A DNA stretch of 64,000 nt from DASRDR01 sp963812945 [NCBI: uncultured Candidatus Rokubacteria bacterium] (GTDB lineage Bacteria; Methylomirabilota; Methylomirabilia; Rokubacteriales), in the NCBI GenBank assembly GCA_963812945.1, contig CAWEXD010000008.1, positions 2,542,001 to 2,606,000 on the forward strand, written 5' to 3'. The position numbers were made by a program, and so were the translations under genes. Below the pieces are notes generated by a model, which saw nothing but the letters and a program-made list of their open reading frames with translations, was not told the origin of the DNA and searched no databases. Each line of letters starts with the position of its first letter. Position 1 is the first letter of the stretch. This document shows, piece after piece, positions 20,117 through 29,733 of the stretch.

Positions 20117-20299
20117 TCGATCGACATCATCTCGAGGCAGTCGGGCCATTCCCCCAAGAGCTATCGGAATGACTGCGCGCGTTCATCTTCGGAGCCACCG
20201 GAGCCCGCTGGTGACGTCCTCCAACCTGACGTATTCTGGCCAAAAGTGTCGAGGAGCACGATCCCCGATGACACCCATGGCGGTCGAAAGGAGCGCGGC

Positions 20300-21367
20300 A
20301 TGAGTCTTCCCAAGACGATGAAGGCCACCGTCCTCGTGGCGCCCCACCGGTTCGAGCTCGAGGAGCGGCCGGTGCCGGAGCCGGGGCCCGAGGATGCGCT
20401 GGTCCGCGTGCGCGCCTGCGGCGTCTGAGGCACCGATCTGAAAATCATCCACCAGGGCATGCCGAAGATGCCGCCCTACGGCGAGTTCATCTTCGGCCAC
20501 GAGTACGCCGGCGACGTCGTCGCGGTCGGTGAGTCGGTGGATGAGTTTCAGCTGGGCGACCGGGTGGTCGTCGAGGCGCACATGGGCTGTCGCCGCTGCG
20601 AGAACTGCATCCGCGGCTTCTATACCGCCTGCCTCAACTACGGCAACCGCCGGCGCGGACACCGCGCCAACGGGTTCACCACCAACGGGGGGCTGGCCGA
20701 GTACGCGGTCAACCACGTCAACACCCTCTACAGGATCCCGGACCACGTGAGCTACGACGAGGCCGTCGTCGTCATGACGGCCGGGAGCCCGCTCTACGGG
20801 CTTCAGATCTCCGGCGGCTACTTCGCTGGCGAGACCGTGGCCGTGCTGGGTCCGGGACCGATCGGCCTGATGGCCCTCCAACTCGTCAAGGCGCTCGGCG
20901 CCGTGCGCGTCATCCTGACCGGCACCCGTGCGAGCCGCCTCGCCCTGGGCAAGGAGCTAGGGGCCGACTTCACGGTGAACGCCCGAGAGCAGGACCCTGT
21001 CGCCGCCGTGCGCCAGGCCACGGACGGCAAGGGCGCCGACACCGTCATCGACTGCGCGGGGGGCGACGAGACATTCGACCAGGCGATCAAGATGACGAAG
21101 CCCGGCGGCCGGATCATCCTGGTCGCCTTCTACCACGGCCCCGTGACCGCCGACCTCGCCGACGCCGTGCGCCGGAACCTCACCATCTACACCGAGCGCG
21201 GCGAGGGCGGCACGAGCGTCGGACAGGCGCTCCGCCTGCTCGCCGCCGGACGGATCCAGGCGAAGCCCCTGGTGAGCCACACGTTCCCGCTCTCCCGGGT
21301 GCATGAGGGCTTCGACGTGCTCGAGAAGCGCACAGGCGATCCGATGAAGGTCATCTTTCACCCCTAG
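20300..21367 (+). CDS. Zinc alcohol dehydrogenase with in-frame TGA at the catalytic Cys (candidate selenoprotein)
   Basis: The frame from ATG 20300 to TAG 21367 would encode 355 residues of a medium-chain zinc dehydrogenase, interrupted only by TGA at 20426-20428, codon 43. Homologous families read ACGVCGTDL here, so the TGA stands exactly where the catalytic zinc-ligand Cys belongs. Everything else is intact: GHE at 66-68, four structural-zinc cysteines (97, 100, 103, 111), VLGPGPIGLMAL for NAD binding, and a full C-terminus. AAGGAG precedes the ATG. A hairpin at 20455-20474 could serve as SECIS. Read-through as selenocysteine would give a Sec-zinc enzyme; a plain nonsense mutation or sequencing error is the alternative. 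TGA is a normal stop elsewhere in the window. It is 11 bp upstream of the TctC-like gene. Confidence 0.75.
20455..20474 (+). promoter_or_regulatory. Candidate bacterial SECIS hairpin
   Basis: GGCAT (20456-20460) pairs perfectly with ATGCC (20468-20472), with loop GCCGAAG; G20455 can pair with C20474 across a bulged G. The loop begins with G and lies 33 nt after the TGA. This fits the loose bacterial SECIS rules (short stem, G early in the loop, roughly 16-37 nt from the UGA). The stem is short and lies in coding sequence, so chance occurrence is quite possible. Confidence 0.35.
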
Positions 21368-21378
21368 CGAGGGCTGCC

Positions 21379-22332
21379 ATGCTGCCAGCAAGACTGTTGC
21401 TGTTCGCCTTCCTCGCGGCGGGGCCCGCCTCGGCATGGGCTCAGGCGCCGTTTCCCTCCAAGCCGATCGAGCTGACCGTCCTGTTCGGCGCGGGTAGCGG
21501 CGCCGACCTCCTGGCTCGGAAGCTCGCCGAGGCGGCCGCGAAGGACCTTGCGCAGCCGGTGGCCGTGGTCAACCGGACGGGCGCGGGCGGCGCCATCGGC
21601 TACACCCACGTCCGGGGCCAGCCCGCCGACGGCCATGCCCTGGTGTGGAACTCCAACAGCATCAGCACCGCCTATCACGCGGGCAACATGAAGCTCGACT
21701 ACACCGCCTTTGCCGGCGTCGCCCAGCTGACGACCGAGCCCGTTTCCCTGGCCGTCAAGGCCGACGCCCCGTGGAAGGACATCCGCGAGCTCATCGCCCA
21801 CGCGAAGGCTCAGCCTGGCCAGGTGCGGGTCGGCAACTCGGGGCGCGGCAGCTTCACCCACCTGGTGGCCGTCGCCCTCGAGAACCAGACGGGGGCGAAG
21901 CTCACCCACGTCCCGTTCGGTCAGCAGCTCGCCATCACCACGGTGCTCGGCGACAAGATCGAGGCGAGCGTGCAGCTGCCCGCGGAGATCATGGCCCAGG
22001 TGACGGGCAAGCAGGTCCGCATCCTGGCCGTCACCGGCGAGAAGCGGCTCGGCGCCCTGCCCGACGTGCCGACGTTCCGGGAAAGCGGCATCGACCTCGC
22101 ACTGTCGCTCTGGCGGGGGATCGCCGTCCCGAAGGGGACGCCGGACGCGGTGATCGCGCGGCTGGAGAGCGCGTTCATGGCAGCGGCGCAGAGCGCCGAA
22201 TTCCGGGAGTTTGCCGCGAAGATGGGGGCAGCCGTCGAGATCCGCCGCGCGCGCGAGTTCGACACGTTCATCGCCCAGGAGGATCGTGACCTGGCGGCGC
22301 TCATGGAGCAGGTCGGGCTCAAGAAGCAGTAG
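21379..22332 (+). CDS. Tripartite tricarboxylate transporter substrate-binding protein (Bug/TctC)
   Basis: The 317-residue periplasmic binding protein has a signal peptide (LLLFAFLAAGPASAWAQ) and the Bug-family pattern: FPSKPIELTVLFGAGSGADLLARKLA, VVNRTGAGGAIG, THVPFGQQLAITTVLGDKIEA and a C-terminal GIAVPKGTPD. Bug proteins bind carboxylates and aromatic acids. It is followed within 24 bp by TctB and then TctA. It starts 11 bp after the alcohol dehydrogenase, which suggests that the imported compound feeds that enzyme. GAGGG precedes the ATG. Confidence 0.92.
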   Translation: MLPARLLLFAFLAAGPASAWAQAPFPSKPIELTVLFGAGSGADLLARKLAEAAAKDLAQPVAVVNRTGAGGAIGYTHVRGQPADGHALVWNSNSISTAYHAGNMKLDYTAFAGVAQLTTEPVSLAVKADAPWKDIRELIAHAKAQPGQVRVGNSGRGSFTHLVAVALENQTGAKLTHVPFGQQLAITTVLGDKIEASVQLPAEIMAQVTGKQVRILAVTGEKRLGALPDVPTFRESGIDLALSLWRGIAVPKGTPDAVIARLESAFMAAAQSAEFREFAAKMGAAVEIRRAREFDTFIAQEDRDLAALMEQVGLKKQ

Positions 22333-22355: not shown

Positions 22356-22817
22356 ATGCCACGCAATCCCGAGGCTCGGCGGGACCTCCTGAGCGCGGGG
22401 GGTCTCGCCGTCCTCGCGATCGCGTACCTCGCCGCCAATCGCGCGTACCCCCTCGACAGCCTGGCGACGCCGGGACCGGGCGTCTTCCCGCTCGCGGCCG
22501 GGACGCTGATGCTCGGGGCCGCCCTTGGCCAGGCCGTCGCCGCCGCCAGGGCCCGCCCCGCCGCCACACCGGACACCGCCGAGGATGCCGTGCGGTGGCG
22601 GGTCCTCGCGTTGATGGCGGTCCTGGTCGGCTATCCGATCGCGGCGGCGATCGGGTTCCTGACCGCCTCGTTCGTGGTCGTCCTCGCCTCGAGCCGTCTC
22701 CTGGGCGCGCGCGATTGGCTCCGGCCGGCGGCCCTGGCGCTTGGCGTCAGCGTCGCCGCCTACGCGATCTTCGTCGCCTGGCTCGGCGTGCCGCTCCCCT
22801 CGGGTCCGCTCCCCTGA
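22356..22817 (+). CDS. TctB-type small membrane subunit
   Basis: The 153-residue protein has four hydrophobic segments, with the loop TPGPGVFPLAAGTLML between the first two, typical of TctB. It joins TctA as the small membrane subunit of a secondary, cation-driven tricarboxylate-type transporter. It lies between the binding protein and TctA, 12 bp before the latter. The sequence diverges freely in this family, so gene order supports the call as much as sequence does. Confidence 0.85.
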   Translation: MPRNPEARRDLLSAGGLAVLAIAYLAANRAYPLDSLATPGPGVFPLAAGTLMLGAALGQAVAAARARPAATPDTAEDAVRWRVLALMAVLVGYPIAAAIGFLTASFVVVLASSRLLGARDWLRPAALALGVSVAAYAIFVAWLGVPLPSGPLP

Positions 22818-22829
22818 GCGCCAGGCTCC

Positions 22830-24341
22830 ATGACGGACCCCGGCTTCGCGGCAGCGCTGCTCGCGGGCCTTCAACCCGAGAACGTCCTCGCGTGCCTGGC
22901 CGGGACCGTGATCGGCACCCTGGTCGGCGTGCTCCCGGGCCTGGGGCCGGCGGCCGCCATGGCGCTCCTCTTGCCGCTCACCCTCAAGCTCGGCCCGGCG
23001 GCCGGGCTCATCATGCTGGCTGGAATCTACTACGGCGCGATGTACGGCGGCTCGACGACGTCGATCCTCTTGAACGTCCCCGGCGAGGCCGCCAGCGTGG
23101 TCACGGCGATCGACGGCTACCGGCTGGCCCGGCGCGGGCGGGCGGGCGCGGCCCTGGCGATCGCGGCCATCGCGTCCTTCGTCGCGGGAACGTTCAGCGT
23201 CGTCGCTCTCCAGCTCCTTGCCCCGTCGGTCGCCCGGGCGGCCCTGGCCTTCGGTCCCGCCGAATACTTCGCGTTCACGCTCCTCGGGCTCGCGGTGCTC
23301 GCGAACCTGACCGGCGGCCCGCGCGCGAAGGCGCTGGCAATGGTCGCGCTGGGACTCGTGCTTTCGACGGTCGGGATGGACCCGCTGGGCGGCACCGTGC
23401 GCTTCACGTGGGACGTCGGGGGCGCCCAGGCAGGTCTGAGCTTCGTCGCGGTCGCGACCGGGCTTTTCGGCATCGCCGAGGTCTTGGCCGCCGCCGGGCG
23501 GCCGACCGCCACCCCGGTCGCAAGCGTCCGGCTGCGCGAGCTCTATCCCGATCGCGACGAGCTGCGCCGGGCGGTGCCCCCGATGATCCGAGGAAGCGTG
23601 CTCGGATTCCTCGTGGGCCTCATCCCGGGCCCGGCGGCGACCATCGCCTCGTTCGTGTCCTACGGCGTGGAGCGTCGCCTCTCGAAGCACCGGCACGAGC
23701 TGGGACGTGGCGCCATCGAAGGCGTCGCGGGCCCCGAGGCCGCCAACAACGCCGCGGTGGGCGGCGGGATGGTGCCACTCCTGTCGCTGGGACTGCCCTT
23801 CACACCGTCGACGGCGGTGCTCATGAGCGGCATGCTGCTCCAGGGCGTGACTCCGGGGCCGTTCCTCCTGCGGGACCACCCGCACGTCTTCTGGAGCATC
23901 ATCGGAAGCCTCTACATTGGCAACGTGATGCTGCTCGTGCTGAACCTGCCGCTGGTCGGCCTGTTCGCCCGGGTGGCCGCCGTCCCGGCGCGCTACCTGA
24001 TGCCGGCCGTACTCGTCCTGTGCGCGGTGGGCGCCTTCGCGGACAACAACAACCTCTTCGACGTGTGGGTCATGGTGGGAGCGGGGCTTCTCGGCTACGT
24101 GATGCGAGGGCTGGGCTACGATCCAGCCCCGCTCGTCCTAGGGCTCGTGCTCGGGCCGGTCATGGAGCGCTCCCTGCTGCAGGCGCTCACCATCGCCCGT
24201 GGCGACCCGGGCGGGCTCTGGGACTCGCCACTGTCGGCAGGGCTGCTGGTCGCGGCCGTGACCGTCCTGATCGCGCCCGCGCTGGCGCGGCTCGTGGGCC
24301 GCCGGCACGCCGCAGCCACGGCCGATCGGCAGGCGGATTGA
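22830..24341 (+). CDS. TctA-type large membrane subunit
   Basis: The 503-residue protein has about a dozen membrane segments and the TctA hallmarks: GVLPGLGPAAAMALLLPLT near residue 38, YYGAMYGGSTTSILLNVPGE near 70, and PEAANNAAVGGGMVPLLSLGLP near 304. It is the transport subunit of the tripartite tricarboxylate system. The gene ends the dehydrogenase-TctCBA unit. The next gene is convergent, with a GC-rich hairpin in between. Confidence 0.93.
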   Translation: MTDPGFAAALLAGLQPENVLACLAGTVIGTLVGVLPGLGPAAAMALLLPLTLKLGPAAGLIMLAGIYYGAMYGGSTTSILLNVPGEAASVVTAIDGYRLARRGRAGAALAIAAIASFVAGTFSVVALQLLAPSVARAALAFGPAEYFAFTLLGLAVLANLTGGPRAKALAMVALGLVLSTVGMDPLGGTVRFTWDVGGAQAGLSFVAVATGLFGIAEVLAAAGRPTATPVASVRLRELYPDRDELRRAVPPMIRGSVLGFLVGLIPGPAATIASFVSYGVERRLSKHRHELGRGAIEGVAGPEAANNAAVGGGMVPLLSLGLPFTPSTAVLMSGMLLQGVTPGPFLLRDHPHVFWSIIGSLYIGNVMLLVLNLPLVGLFARVAAVPARYLMPAVLVLCAVGAFADNNNLFDVWVMVGAGLLGYVMRGLGYDPAPLVLGLVLGPVMERSLLQALTIARGDPGGLWDSPLSAGLLVAAVTVLIAPALARLVGRRHAAATADRQAD

Positions 24342-27248: not shown

Positions 27249-28091
27249 ATGACCGTCCTCCGGGGACTGCTCCGCAACCGCACGGCGGCGTTCGGGTTCG
27301 GGCTCACCGCGTTCCTGGCGATTCTCGCCGTGTTCGCGCCGTGGGTCGCGCCGTATCGCCCGGACGAGATCCACCCCATCGACAGCCTCCTGCCGCCGTC
27401 CGCCCGCTACTGGCTGGGAACCGACGACCTCGGGCGCGACATCCTGAGCCGGATCGTGTTCGGGGCGCGCGCCTCCCTCATGGTCGGCTCGATCGCGGTC
27501 GGAATCGCGGCGACGGTGGGCATCCCCCTGGGCCTGCTGGCGGGGTACGTCGGTGGTCGGCTGGACGGCCTGGTCATGCGGCTGATGGACGCACTGCTGG
27601 CGTTCCCGGCAATCCTGCTGGCCATCGCGCTGATGGCGGTGCTCGGGCCATCGCTCCAGAACGCGATGGTGGCGATCGGCATCGTGTTCATCCCGGCCTT
27701 CGCCCGGATCACGCGCGCGAACACCCTGTCGCTCCGCGAGAAGGAGTTTGTGGAGGCCGCGCGGGCGCTGGGAGCCGGCAGCGTCTACATCGCCGCCGGT
27801 GTCATCCTGCCGAACTGCCTGTCGCCGCTGATCGTCCAGGGCTCGCTCGCCGTGGCCAACGCGATCCTCGTCGAGGCCGCGCTGTCGTTCCTCGGGCTCG
27901 GGGTCCAGCCGCCGGATCCCTCCTGGGGCTCGATGCTCGCCTTCGGCCGGAATCTGCTCAGCCAGGCGCCCTGGTACGCGACCTTCGCCGGACTCTCGAT
28001 CTTCGTCACCGTGCTCGGGCTCAACTTTCTGGGCGACGGGCTTCGTGAGGCGCTCGATCCCCGCCTTCGCACGGCGGAGCGCGGCGCATGA
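27249..28091 (+). CDS. ABC transporter permease (DppC/peptide-nickel type)
   Basis: The 280-residue permease has the DppC pattern: an N-terminal membrane helix, YWLGTDDLGRDILSRIVFGAR (just after residue 50), the EAA-type loop EFVEAARALGAGSVYI and a late FLGLGVQPPDPSWGSML. It pairs with DppB-like permease. The ATG at 27249 lies 11 bp after the upstream stop; the open frame extends further upstream but overlaps the DppB gene. Confidence 0.92.
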   Translation: MTVLRGLLRNRTAAFGFGLTAFLAILAVFAPWVAPYRPDEIHPIDSLLPPSARYWLGTDDLGRDILSRIVFGARASLMVGSIAVGIAATVGIPLGLLAGYVGGRLDGLVMRLMDALLAFPAILLAIALMAVLGPSLQNAMVAIGIVFIPAFARITRANTLSLREKEFVEAARALGAGSVYIAAGVILPNCLSPLIVQGSLAVANAILVEAALSFLGLGVQPPDPSWGSMLAFGRNLLSQAPWYATFAGLSIFVTVLGLNFLGDGLREALDPRLRTAERGA

Positions 28092-28152
28092 GCCACCGCC
28101 CCGTCCCACGTCAGGCGCTCCCGTCACACCGCCCACAACAGGAGGACCCATC

Positions 28153-29733
28153 ATGACCGACACGCGACGCATCCTCGACCTTCTCGAGTCCAGCGGCATG
28201 CCGCTCGGTCGGCGGGATCTGCTCCGCCTCGCCGGCGAGGGCGGCATCGCCCTGGCCGGCCTCGCCCTTCTCGCCGGCGCCGAGCCGGAGCCGGCGGCCG
28301 CTCAGGCCGGCGGCACGATGCGCATCCACATGGCGACGGACATCCAGCAGCTCGATCCCCACCTGGTCACGGCCTGGAACGACTACTGCCCCTTGGAGTC
28401 CATGTTCTCGAGCCTGACCGCGCTGGATCGCGACTTCCAGCCGGTGCCCGACCTCGCTCAGTCCTGGACCCAGCCCGACCCGAAGACATACGTGTTCCAG
28501 CTGCGGAAAGGCGTCCTCTTCCACAGCGGGCGGGAGATGAAGGCCGCCGACGTGAAGTTCTCCCTCGAGCGGATCCAGAGTCTCGGCGGGCGGAGCAAGT
28601 GGTACACGCTCATCCTCGATCTCGAGCGTGCCGAGGTCATCGACGACTACCGGGTGCGGCTCCTCCTCAAGCAGCCGTCCGCGCCATTCCTGGCCAACCT
28701 GGCCTTCGCGACGATCGTGGCCCAGGAGAACGTCGAGAAGATCGGCCTCGAACCGGTCGGGACGGGACCGTTCCGCTTCGTCGAGCGAGTGCCAAACTCG
28801 CACTTCCTCGTCCGCCGCTGGGACAAGTTCTACGTGCCCGGCCAGCCGAAGGTGGACGAGATCCGCTGGGTGCCGGCGGTCGAGGAGGCGACGCGCGTCG
28901 CCAACCTCCGGGCCGGAACCGCCGACATCATCAGCCAGGTGCCGCACTCGACACTGGCCGAGCTGCGCGGGACCCCGGGCATCGTGCTCCAGGAGCCGAA
29001 GGCGTCCTCGGCCTATGCCGTCATCCAGCTGAAGCACGCGCCGCCGCTCGACAACAAGAAGGTCCGCCAGGCGCTGGCCATGCTGGTCGACCGGGAGGCG
29101 CTCAACCGCTCGGTCTTCTTCGGCGTCGGCACGACCGCGCAGGGCTGCAATCCCTTCCCGGTCGGCCACTGGGCGCACGCGGACGTCAGCTGCCCCAAGT
29201 ACGACCCCGAGGGCGCCAAAAAGCTCCTGGCCGAGGCGGGATTCCCACAAGGGCTCGAGCTCGAGTGGAAGGTCCAGAACTTTCCACAGACCATCAAGAT
29301 CGCCGAGATCTGCAAGGAAACGTTCAGGCGCGGCGGCGTCAACGTCAAGCTCACCCAGCTCGAGTTCGCGACGTGGATCCAGCAGGTCTACCGGGACAAG
29401 CAGTTCCAGCTGGGCCAGACGACGTTCCTCCGGGAGGCCGATCCCGACGGTCTGGTAGTCAGCGCGCTCTTCACCGGCGGCCAGAACAACCCCGGCGGCT
29501 ACTCCACCAAGGACATGGACACGCTCCTCACGCAGGGCCGCGCGGAGCTCAACGTCGAGAAGCGGAAGGCCATCTACAAGAGGATCGCGGAGATCGTCGC
29601 CGACGACGTCCCCTGGATCCGCGTCCAGCCGAACCCCTTCATCTGGGCGTCGACCAGCAAGGTCGGCGGGTTCTACATCAACAACCAGTCGCGGCCGTTC
29701 GTCGCGCTTCGCGAGATGACGGTCCAGAAGTGA
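28153..29733 (+). CDS. ABC transporter substrate-binding protein (peptide/nickel family 5)
   Basis: The 526-residue periplasmic protein has a twin-arginine-like leader (GRRDLLRLAG followed by a hydrophobic run and AAAQA). The family 5 core follows: QLDPHLVTAWNDY, YVFQLRKGVLFHSGREMKAADVKFSLE, and GTGPFRFVE. It would bind a peptide, opine or glycoside. GGAGGA lies before the ATG. The TGA overlaps the GTG of the next gene (GTGA), so the binding protein is translationally coupled to the ceramidase-like gene. Confidence 0.92.
   Translation: MTDTRRILDLLESSGMPLGRRDLLRLAGEGGIALAGLALLAGAEPEPAAAQAGGTMRIHMATDIQQLDPHLVTAWNDYCPLESMFSSLTALDRDFQPVPDLAQSWTQPDPKTYVFQLRKGVLFHSGREMKAADVKFSLERIQSLGGRSKWYTLILDLERAEVIDDYRVRLLLKQPSAPFLANLAFATIVAQENVEKIGLEPVGTGPFRFVERVPNSHFLVRRWDKFYVPGQPKVDEIRWVPAVEEATRVANLRAGTADIISQVPHSTLAELRGTPGIVLQEPKASSAYAVIQLKHAPPLDNKKVRQALAMLVDREALNRSVFFGVGTTAQGCNPFPVGHWAHADVSCPKYDPEGAKKLLAEAGFPQGLELEWKVQNFPQTIKIAEICKETFRRGGVNVKLTQLEFATWIQQVYRDKQFQLGQTTFLREADPDGLVVSALFTGGQNNPGGYSTKDMDTLLTQGRAELNVEKRKAIYKRIAEIVADDVPWIRVQPNPFIWASTSKVGGFYINNQSRPFVALREMTVQK

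Follow-up and report, generated by a model that had tools for sequence, protein, structure and literature searches.

The window analyzed here, a 64,000-nucleotide stretch from an uncultured Rokubacterial genome (DASRDR01 sp963812945; contig CAWEXD010000008.1, positions 2,542,001 to 2,606,000), carries a gene for a zinc medium-chain dehydrogenase whose 355-residue frame is interrupted by a single TGA at residue 43, within ACGV-U-GTDL (U marks the TGA). An earlier note, made from the letters alone, had described a full-length frame with one TGA at the catalytic Cys of ACGVCGTDL and had proposed a selenoenzyme; its description of the frame proved correct. The protein scored over cut-off for two Pfam domains (ADH_N, 98.9 bits against a cut-off of 23.5; ADH_zinc_N, 107.6 bits against 31.8). 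The ADH_N match is continuous across residue 43, and an equally unbroken alignment places this residue opposite the Cys of ICGTD in the threonine dehydrogenase of P. horikoshii. We take the Cys at this position to be a catalytic zinc ligand in zinc medium-chain dehydrogenases, His67 and Glu68 to be the remaining expected catalytic ligands, and Cys97, Cys100, Cys103 and Cys111 to be the expected structural zinc set. The window's protein has His67 and Glu68, and the third catalytic ligand position is the TGA codon. In a 34-row alignment, Glu68 is invariant, His67 is present in at least 90% of rows, and the four-Cys set and the Rossmann glycines (Gly184, Gly186 and Gly189) are invariant in all 34, in keeping with the earlier statement that the other functional residues are intact. 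An AlphaFold model built with the 34 sequences as input (mean predicted local distance difference test score, 88.2) resembles zinc medium-chain dehydrogenases, with Z scores of 37.4 to 41.3 among the best 50 structure matches listed. A 302-residue frame (20459-21367) is open from an internal ATG, which is where a list of open reading frames (ORFs) starts the gene.

The TGA is conserved within a close Rokubacterial clade whose members are 79 to 86% identical. Residue 43 is covered in 12 clade genes, including that of the window; the codon is TGA in 11 and TGC in the twelfth. A search of contigs returned 42 loci, 11 of them with Rokuibacteriota titles; nine of these 11 have TGA, one has TGC (L001), and one (L026) ends before residue 43. 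When 95 genomes of the Rokubacterial phylum were searched, 25 rows were obtained, of which nine had one TGA and 16 had no stop, the latter comprising the Cys gene of G001, a truncated piece in G009 and 14 homologues at 48 to 54% identity. This search newly yielded the nearest relative, a TGA-bearing gene in G050 that is 85% identical. A strict motif pattern matched 10 places in nine of the 95 genomes, all of them clade dehydrogenase genes, and also recovered a G010 gene that is cut by a contig end. With the window, the tally is 11 TGA genes in 10 genomes plus one Cys gene, and no clade frame contains a second stop. The sample names of the relatives include NC_groundwater, 50 m DeepCast and depths in cm (probably soil); several of the cm-depth samples share one project. 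Close relatives with Cys would have counted against the earlier proposal, and only L001 is of this kind.

Outside the clade, residue 43 is Cys in 36 of 38 aligned stretches, Ser in one (L039) and Asn in one (L041), with a stop in none; in the 34-row alignment it is Cys in 24 rows, 23 of which lie outside the clade, and TGA in 10. No TGA was found in any homologue examined beyond the clade. At L015, L016, L017 and L018, two Cys homologues, 46 to 56% identical to the query, lie on opposite strands of a single locus. A second selenocysteine (Sec) lineage was sought in three other phyla, with at most five first-look candidates scored per genome and the larger phyla sampled, so that absence is unproven: a stop was present in 0 of 13 homologues at threshold among 395 genomes of L010's phylum and in 0 of 10 homologues among 392 genomes of L012's phylum, and TGA was present in 0 of 9 homologues among 400 genomes of L023's phylum. 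One of these last nine homologues (L160, in G657) has an in-frame TAA. A strict motif pattern gave one match in a scan of 400 genomes, which was rejected as coincidental, its frame containing many stops.

Purifying selection acts both before and after the TGA, as expected of one frame read through. Over 45 pairs drawn from 10 full-length TGA genes, the mean nonsynonymous (dN) and synonymous (dS) rates were 0.127 and 0.647 before the TGA and 0.091 and 0.568 after it; for the ten codons from the TGA to the first internal ATG, they were 0.077 and 0.450. A tree of the proteins unites the 11 full-length members of the clade at 100/100 and places the Cys gene (codon at L001 5971-5973) within the Sec clade beside L004, with support of 88/82. 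The Sec label requires two changes on this tree, a number also forced by the well-supported branches; 5 of 500 shuffles gave a count as low. Because the outgroups have Cys, the plain reading would be one gain of Sec followed by one reversion to Cys. The genome of L001, which has the Cys form, still carries tRNA-Sec, SelB and a SelD with TGA.

As the earlier note had said, TGA serves as a normal stop codon in the window: of 50 window ORFs picked mechanically on codon composition, TGA terminates 36 and TAG terminates 14. When both strands were scanned for TGA junctions flanked by coding signal, four places were flagged, the dehydrogenase among them. By eye, the other three (5885, 22815 and 41415) are gene ends, and among them only 22815, the end of TctB ahead of TctA, has domain support. 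Among the 160 ADH_N matches listed from six genomes, TGA occurred in only six rows, all of them this orthologue. One further row of these matches (G001:C96:36804-37193) is a dehydrogenase N-terminal domain whose frame contains a TAG.

The earlier note had named a lack of selenocysteine machinery as fatal to its proposal, and in the relatives' genomes the machinery is present. tRNA-Sec (selC) scored over cut-off in nine of 10 relative genomes, the miss being G003, and in 79 of the 95 genomes of the phylum; G012, G044 and G045 have two matches apiece. SelB scored over cut-off in 10 of 10 relatives, a count that excludes G050 and that in G003 is reached only on summing two pieces of one frame. 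SelD scored over cut-off in 11 of 11 genomes, each time with one in-frame TGA, and is therefore a second gene there of a well-known Sec family. The SelD TGA lies in CAG-U-ASK (loci L143-L153), at locus position 1531 in most. By eye, most SelD loci have a hairpin after the TGA (CUCCUGGA/UCCAGGAG, with a G-first loop) that is far clearer than that of the dehydrogenase and might serve as a yardstick for the selenocysteine insertion sequence (SECIS) of this lineage. G050, the nearest relative, has a tRNA-Sec(TCA) detected by ARAGORN, SelA about 1.3 kb further on, and SelD. SelA also scored over cut-off in eight searched genomes of Cys homologues, and these lineages seem, as judged by SelA, able to make Sec yet keep Cys at this position.

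Collectively, these data support the selenoenzyme proposal, with the same TGA in 11 of 12 clade genes and the machinery in the relatives' genomes. We propose, at a probability of about 0.92, that the gene encodes a genuine selenoprotein, a zinc dehydrogenase with Sec at the catalytic-zinc Cys. SelB with Sec-tRNA(UCA) would decode the UGA, and a short hairpin that closely follows the codon probably guides this step; the catalytic zinc would be bound by the selenolate along with His67 and Glu68, and the enzyme would oxidize a hydroxylated substrate. Sec decoding in this cell, zinc binding by Sec, and the substrate are points that we infer.

The candidate hairpin is a small one, GGCAU-(GCCGAAG)-AUGCC; its loop of 7 nt begins with G and lies 32 nt beyond the TGA. 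This hairpin meets a published bacterial SECIS model in 10 of the 11 TGA genes; the model places the tip or loop 16 to 37 nt from the UGA (PMC13188914). The earlier note had pointed to a hairpin with a G-first loop that begins 33 nt past the TGA. At that point, 20461, the lowest-energy hairpin (z = -1.73) indeed begins, overlapping the small one, but at least one of its stem pairs is broken in nine of 12 aligned sequences, and its tip, 47 nt from the TGA, is beyond the range of the model. Codons 44 to 65 show a synonymous variation of 0.18, compared with 0.32 on average for the gene (18th among 333 codon windows), which is suggestive only, as codon bias could also cause it.

Several observations weigh against a selenoprotein. 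The small hairpin fails the model in L002 owing to a mismatch, a similar hairpin persists in the Cys gene L001, and synonymous-codon shuffles often folded as well as the real sequence (111 of 300 for the window, 199 of 300 for L005, 77 of 300 for L007 and 147 of 300 for L055). Covariation was at chance (158 of 500 shuffles), and four of the six pairs of the small hairpin never vary. Thus, where the earlier note had set a conserved hairpin as a requirement, a model-compatible one is kept in most TGA genes, but at a level no better than chance. The Sec form was not found in any other phylum sampled. The 64-kb window itself yielded no tRNA and no Rfam match, and the Sec machinery of its own genome is one that we infer from the relatives. 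G003 bears the TGA (L004 2168-2170) and has no tRNA-Sec over cut-off, and His67 is replaced by Asp in its gene; the gene may be decaying, or the bin may be incomplete.

Among the alternatives, programmed read-through that inserts a standard amino acid such as Cys or Trp, with no role for selenium, would accommodate the weak SECIS and the missing tRNA-Sec of G003. It is nonetheless very unlikely, given that the same genomes hold Sec machinery and a TGA-bearing SelD, that TGA is otherwise a common stop, and that exchange of Cys and TGA at one position is the pairing used in selenoprotein finding. Alternatively, the TGA could be a true stop that ends a 42-codon leader, with the 302-residue frame made separately from the ATG at 20459; codon 57, moreover, is also ATG in 11 of 11 sequences compared. 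This is highly improbable, as the TGA sits on the family's invariant Cys, the domain match and the threonine dehydrogenase alignment pass through it unbroken, the ten codons that follow it are conserved, and codon 54 of L002 is CTG rather than ATG. A pseudogene, a recent nonsense mutation (which, with a base error, was the main alternative in the earlier note) or a sequencing error would explain the lone break in the frame and perhaps the His67 replacement in G003, but is very unlikely given the selection on either side of the TGA and the absence of a second stop from every clade frame, and a base error is untenable, because this TGA recurs in assemblies made separately and from differing kinds of sample.

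A selenoprotein thus remains the preferred interpretation, and the neighboring genes bear on its substrate. Genes for a tripartite tricarboxylate transporter follow the dehydrogenase (Table 1), starting with that for the TctC receptor. In four relatives (L001, L003, L005 and L008), homologues of TctC and TctA at 77 to 82% identity lie downstream of the dehydrogenase; L004 has TctC alone before the contig ends, and G050 has TctC and TctA homologues at 41 to 45%. TctA matches at 78 to 82% identity, like the dehydrogenase relatives, point to a Rokubacterial origin of the window. At five other loci (L002, L006, L007, L009 and L026), the downstream gene is a different one, 26 to 31% identical to the window's protein at 28045-29733; in L007, this gene is SBP_bac_5 and is followed by an amine-oxidase-type protein. 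The enzyme probably acts on an organic compound taken up from outside, most likely by way of the transporter encoded downstream.

Table 1. Features of the dehydrogenase locus, in window coordinates
Feature	Coordinates	Strand	Basis or remark
Shine-Dalgarno-like AAGGAG, 5' of the ATG at 20300	20288..20293	+	Read from sequence
Zinc medium-chain dehydrogenase gene	20300..21367	+	355 residues if the TGA encodes Sec; stop is TAG
TGA within the frame (residue 43), candidate codon for Sec in place of the catalytic-zinc Cys	20426..20428	+	Homologue comparison
Candidate bacterial SECIS hairpin, stem GGCAU/AUGCC, G-first loop 20461-20467	20456..20472	+	Fits published model; without statistical support
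His67-Glu68 codons (GHE), expected catalytic zinc ligands	20498..20503	+	Alignment; role expected from the family
Cys97, Cys100, Cys103, Cys111, expected structural zinc set	20588..20632	+	Alignment; role expected from the family
TctC, receptor of the tripartite tricarboxylate transporter, first gene downstream	21379..22332	+	Pfam PF03401
TctB transporter subunit	22356..22817	+	Pfam PF07331
TctA transporter subunit	22830..24341	+	Pfam PF01970

The L-threonine 3-dehydrogenase of P. horikoshii (PDB codes 2dfv and 2d8a) has a similar fold (Z = 39.5; 2.4 Å over 331 residues for 2dfv_A), and, like the wider zinc medium-chain dehydrogenases, it shares with the window's protein the CGTD and GHE motifs and the four-Cys set; the window's gene differs in having TGA for the catalytic Cys. 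The protein falls below the cut-offs of the two best NCBIfam models, L-threonine 3-dehydrogenase (TIGR00692; 213.1 bits against 458.35) and, second, scyllo-inosose 3-dehydrogenase IolM (NF041097; 212.3 bits against 450), and by this test is not a member of either family. The Glu of the LQEP motif in threonine dehydrogenase, which is presumably a further zinc ligand, aligns with Met159 of the window's protein, a position that is variable in the subfamily; because of this, residue 43 may carry a larger share of zinc binding. We somewhat favor the idea that Sec as a catalytic zinc ligand retunes the zinc or makes a redox or metal switch, and that a single Rokubacterial lineage fixed it, within a subfamily lacking the further Glu ligand. 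The Cys homologues, from Thermodesulfobacteriota, Spirochaetota, Myxococcota and other genomes of the Rokubacterial phylum, are 48 to 59% identical over nearly the full length; in contrast to the clade, they have Cys at residue 43 and no TGA that we could find.

Consistent with the earlier remark that no characterized Sec-containing zinc alcohol dehydrogenase is known, the literature searched (titles and the starts of abstracts among the papers listed) reported no selenocysteine zinc dehydrogenase, although an earlier mention is possible, for example in a study of a Methylomirabilota metagenome-assembled genome. One such genome, with 63 selenoproteins, is attributed to Deng et al. 2026 in a 2026 review (PMC13188914). 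The table of 119 prokaryotic selenoprotein families in that review has no alcohol or zinc dehydrogenase, and the terms zinc-binding, ADH and MDR are absent from its text; none was found either in passages of deep-Sep (PMC12013277) and of a 2016 survey (PMC5029168). A selenoprotein in this superfamily, and at a zinc site, is thus without precedent in the literature searched. If the proposal is true, the medium-chain dehydrogenase superfamily joins the selenoproteome, and the clade offers a natural experiment on the effect of selenium at a metal with no redox activity of its own, with Sec in 11 genes, one reversion to Cys, and Cys outgroups. Standard gene calling would presumably stop at residue 42 or start at the internal ATG, and selenoenzymes of this kind would therefore be overlooked. 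According to the review, a thioredoxin-like fold combined with a redox motif is found in most characterized selenoproteins, and Sec ligates the catalytic metal in Sec formate dehydrogenase and [NiFeSe] hydrogenase (PMC13188914). The dehydrogenase described here resembles these last two in its predicted placement of Sec on a catalytic metal; their metal, however, is Mo/W or Ni, whereas here it is expected to be the zinc of an NAD(P)-linked dehydrogenase.
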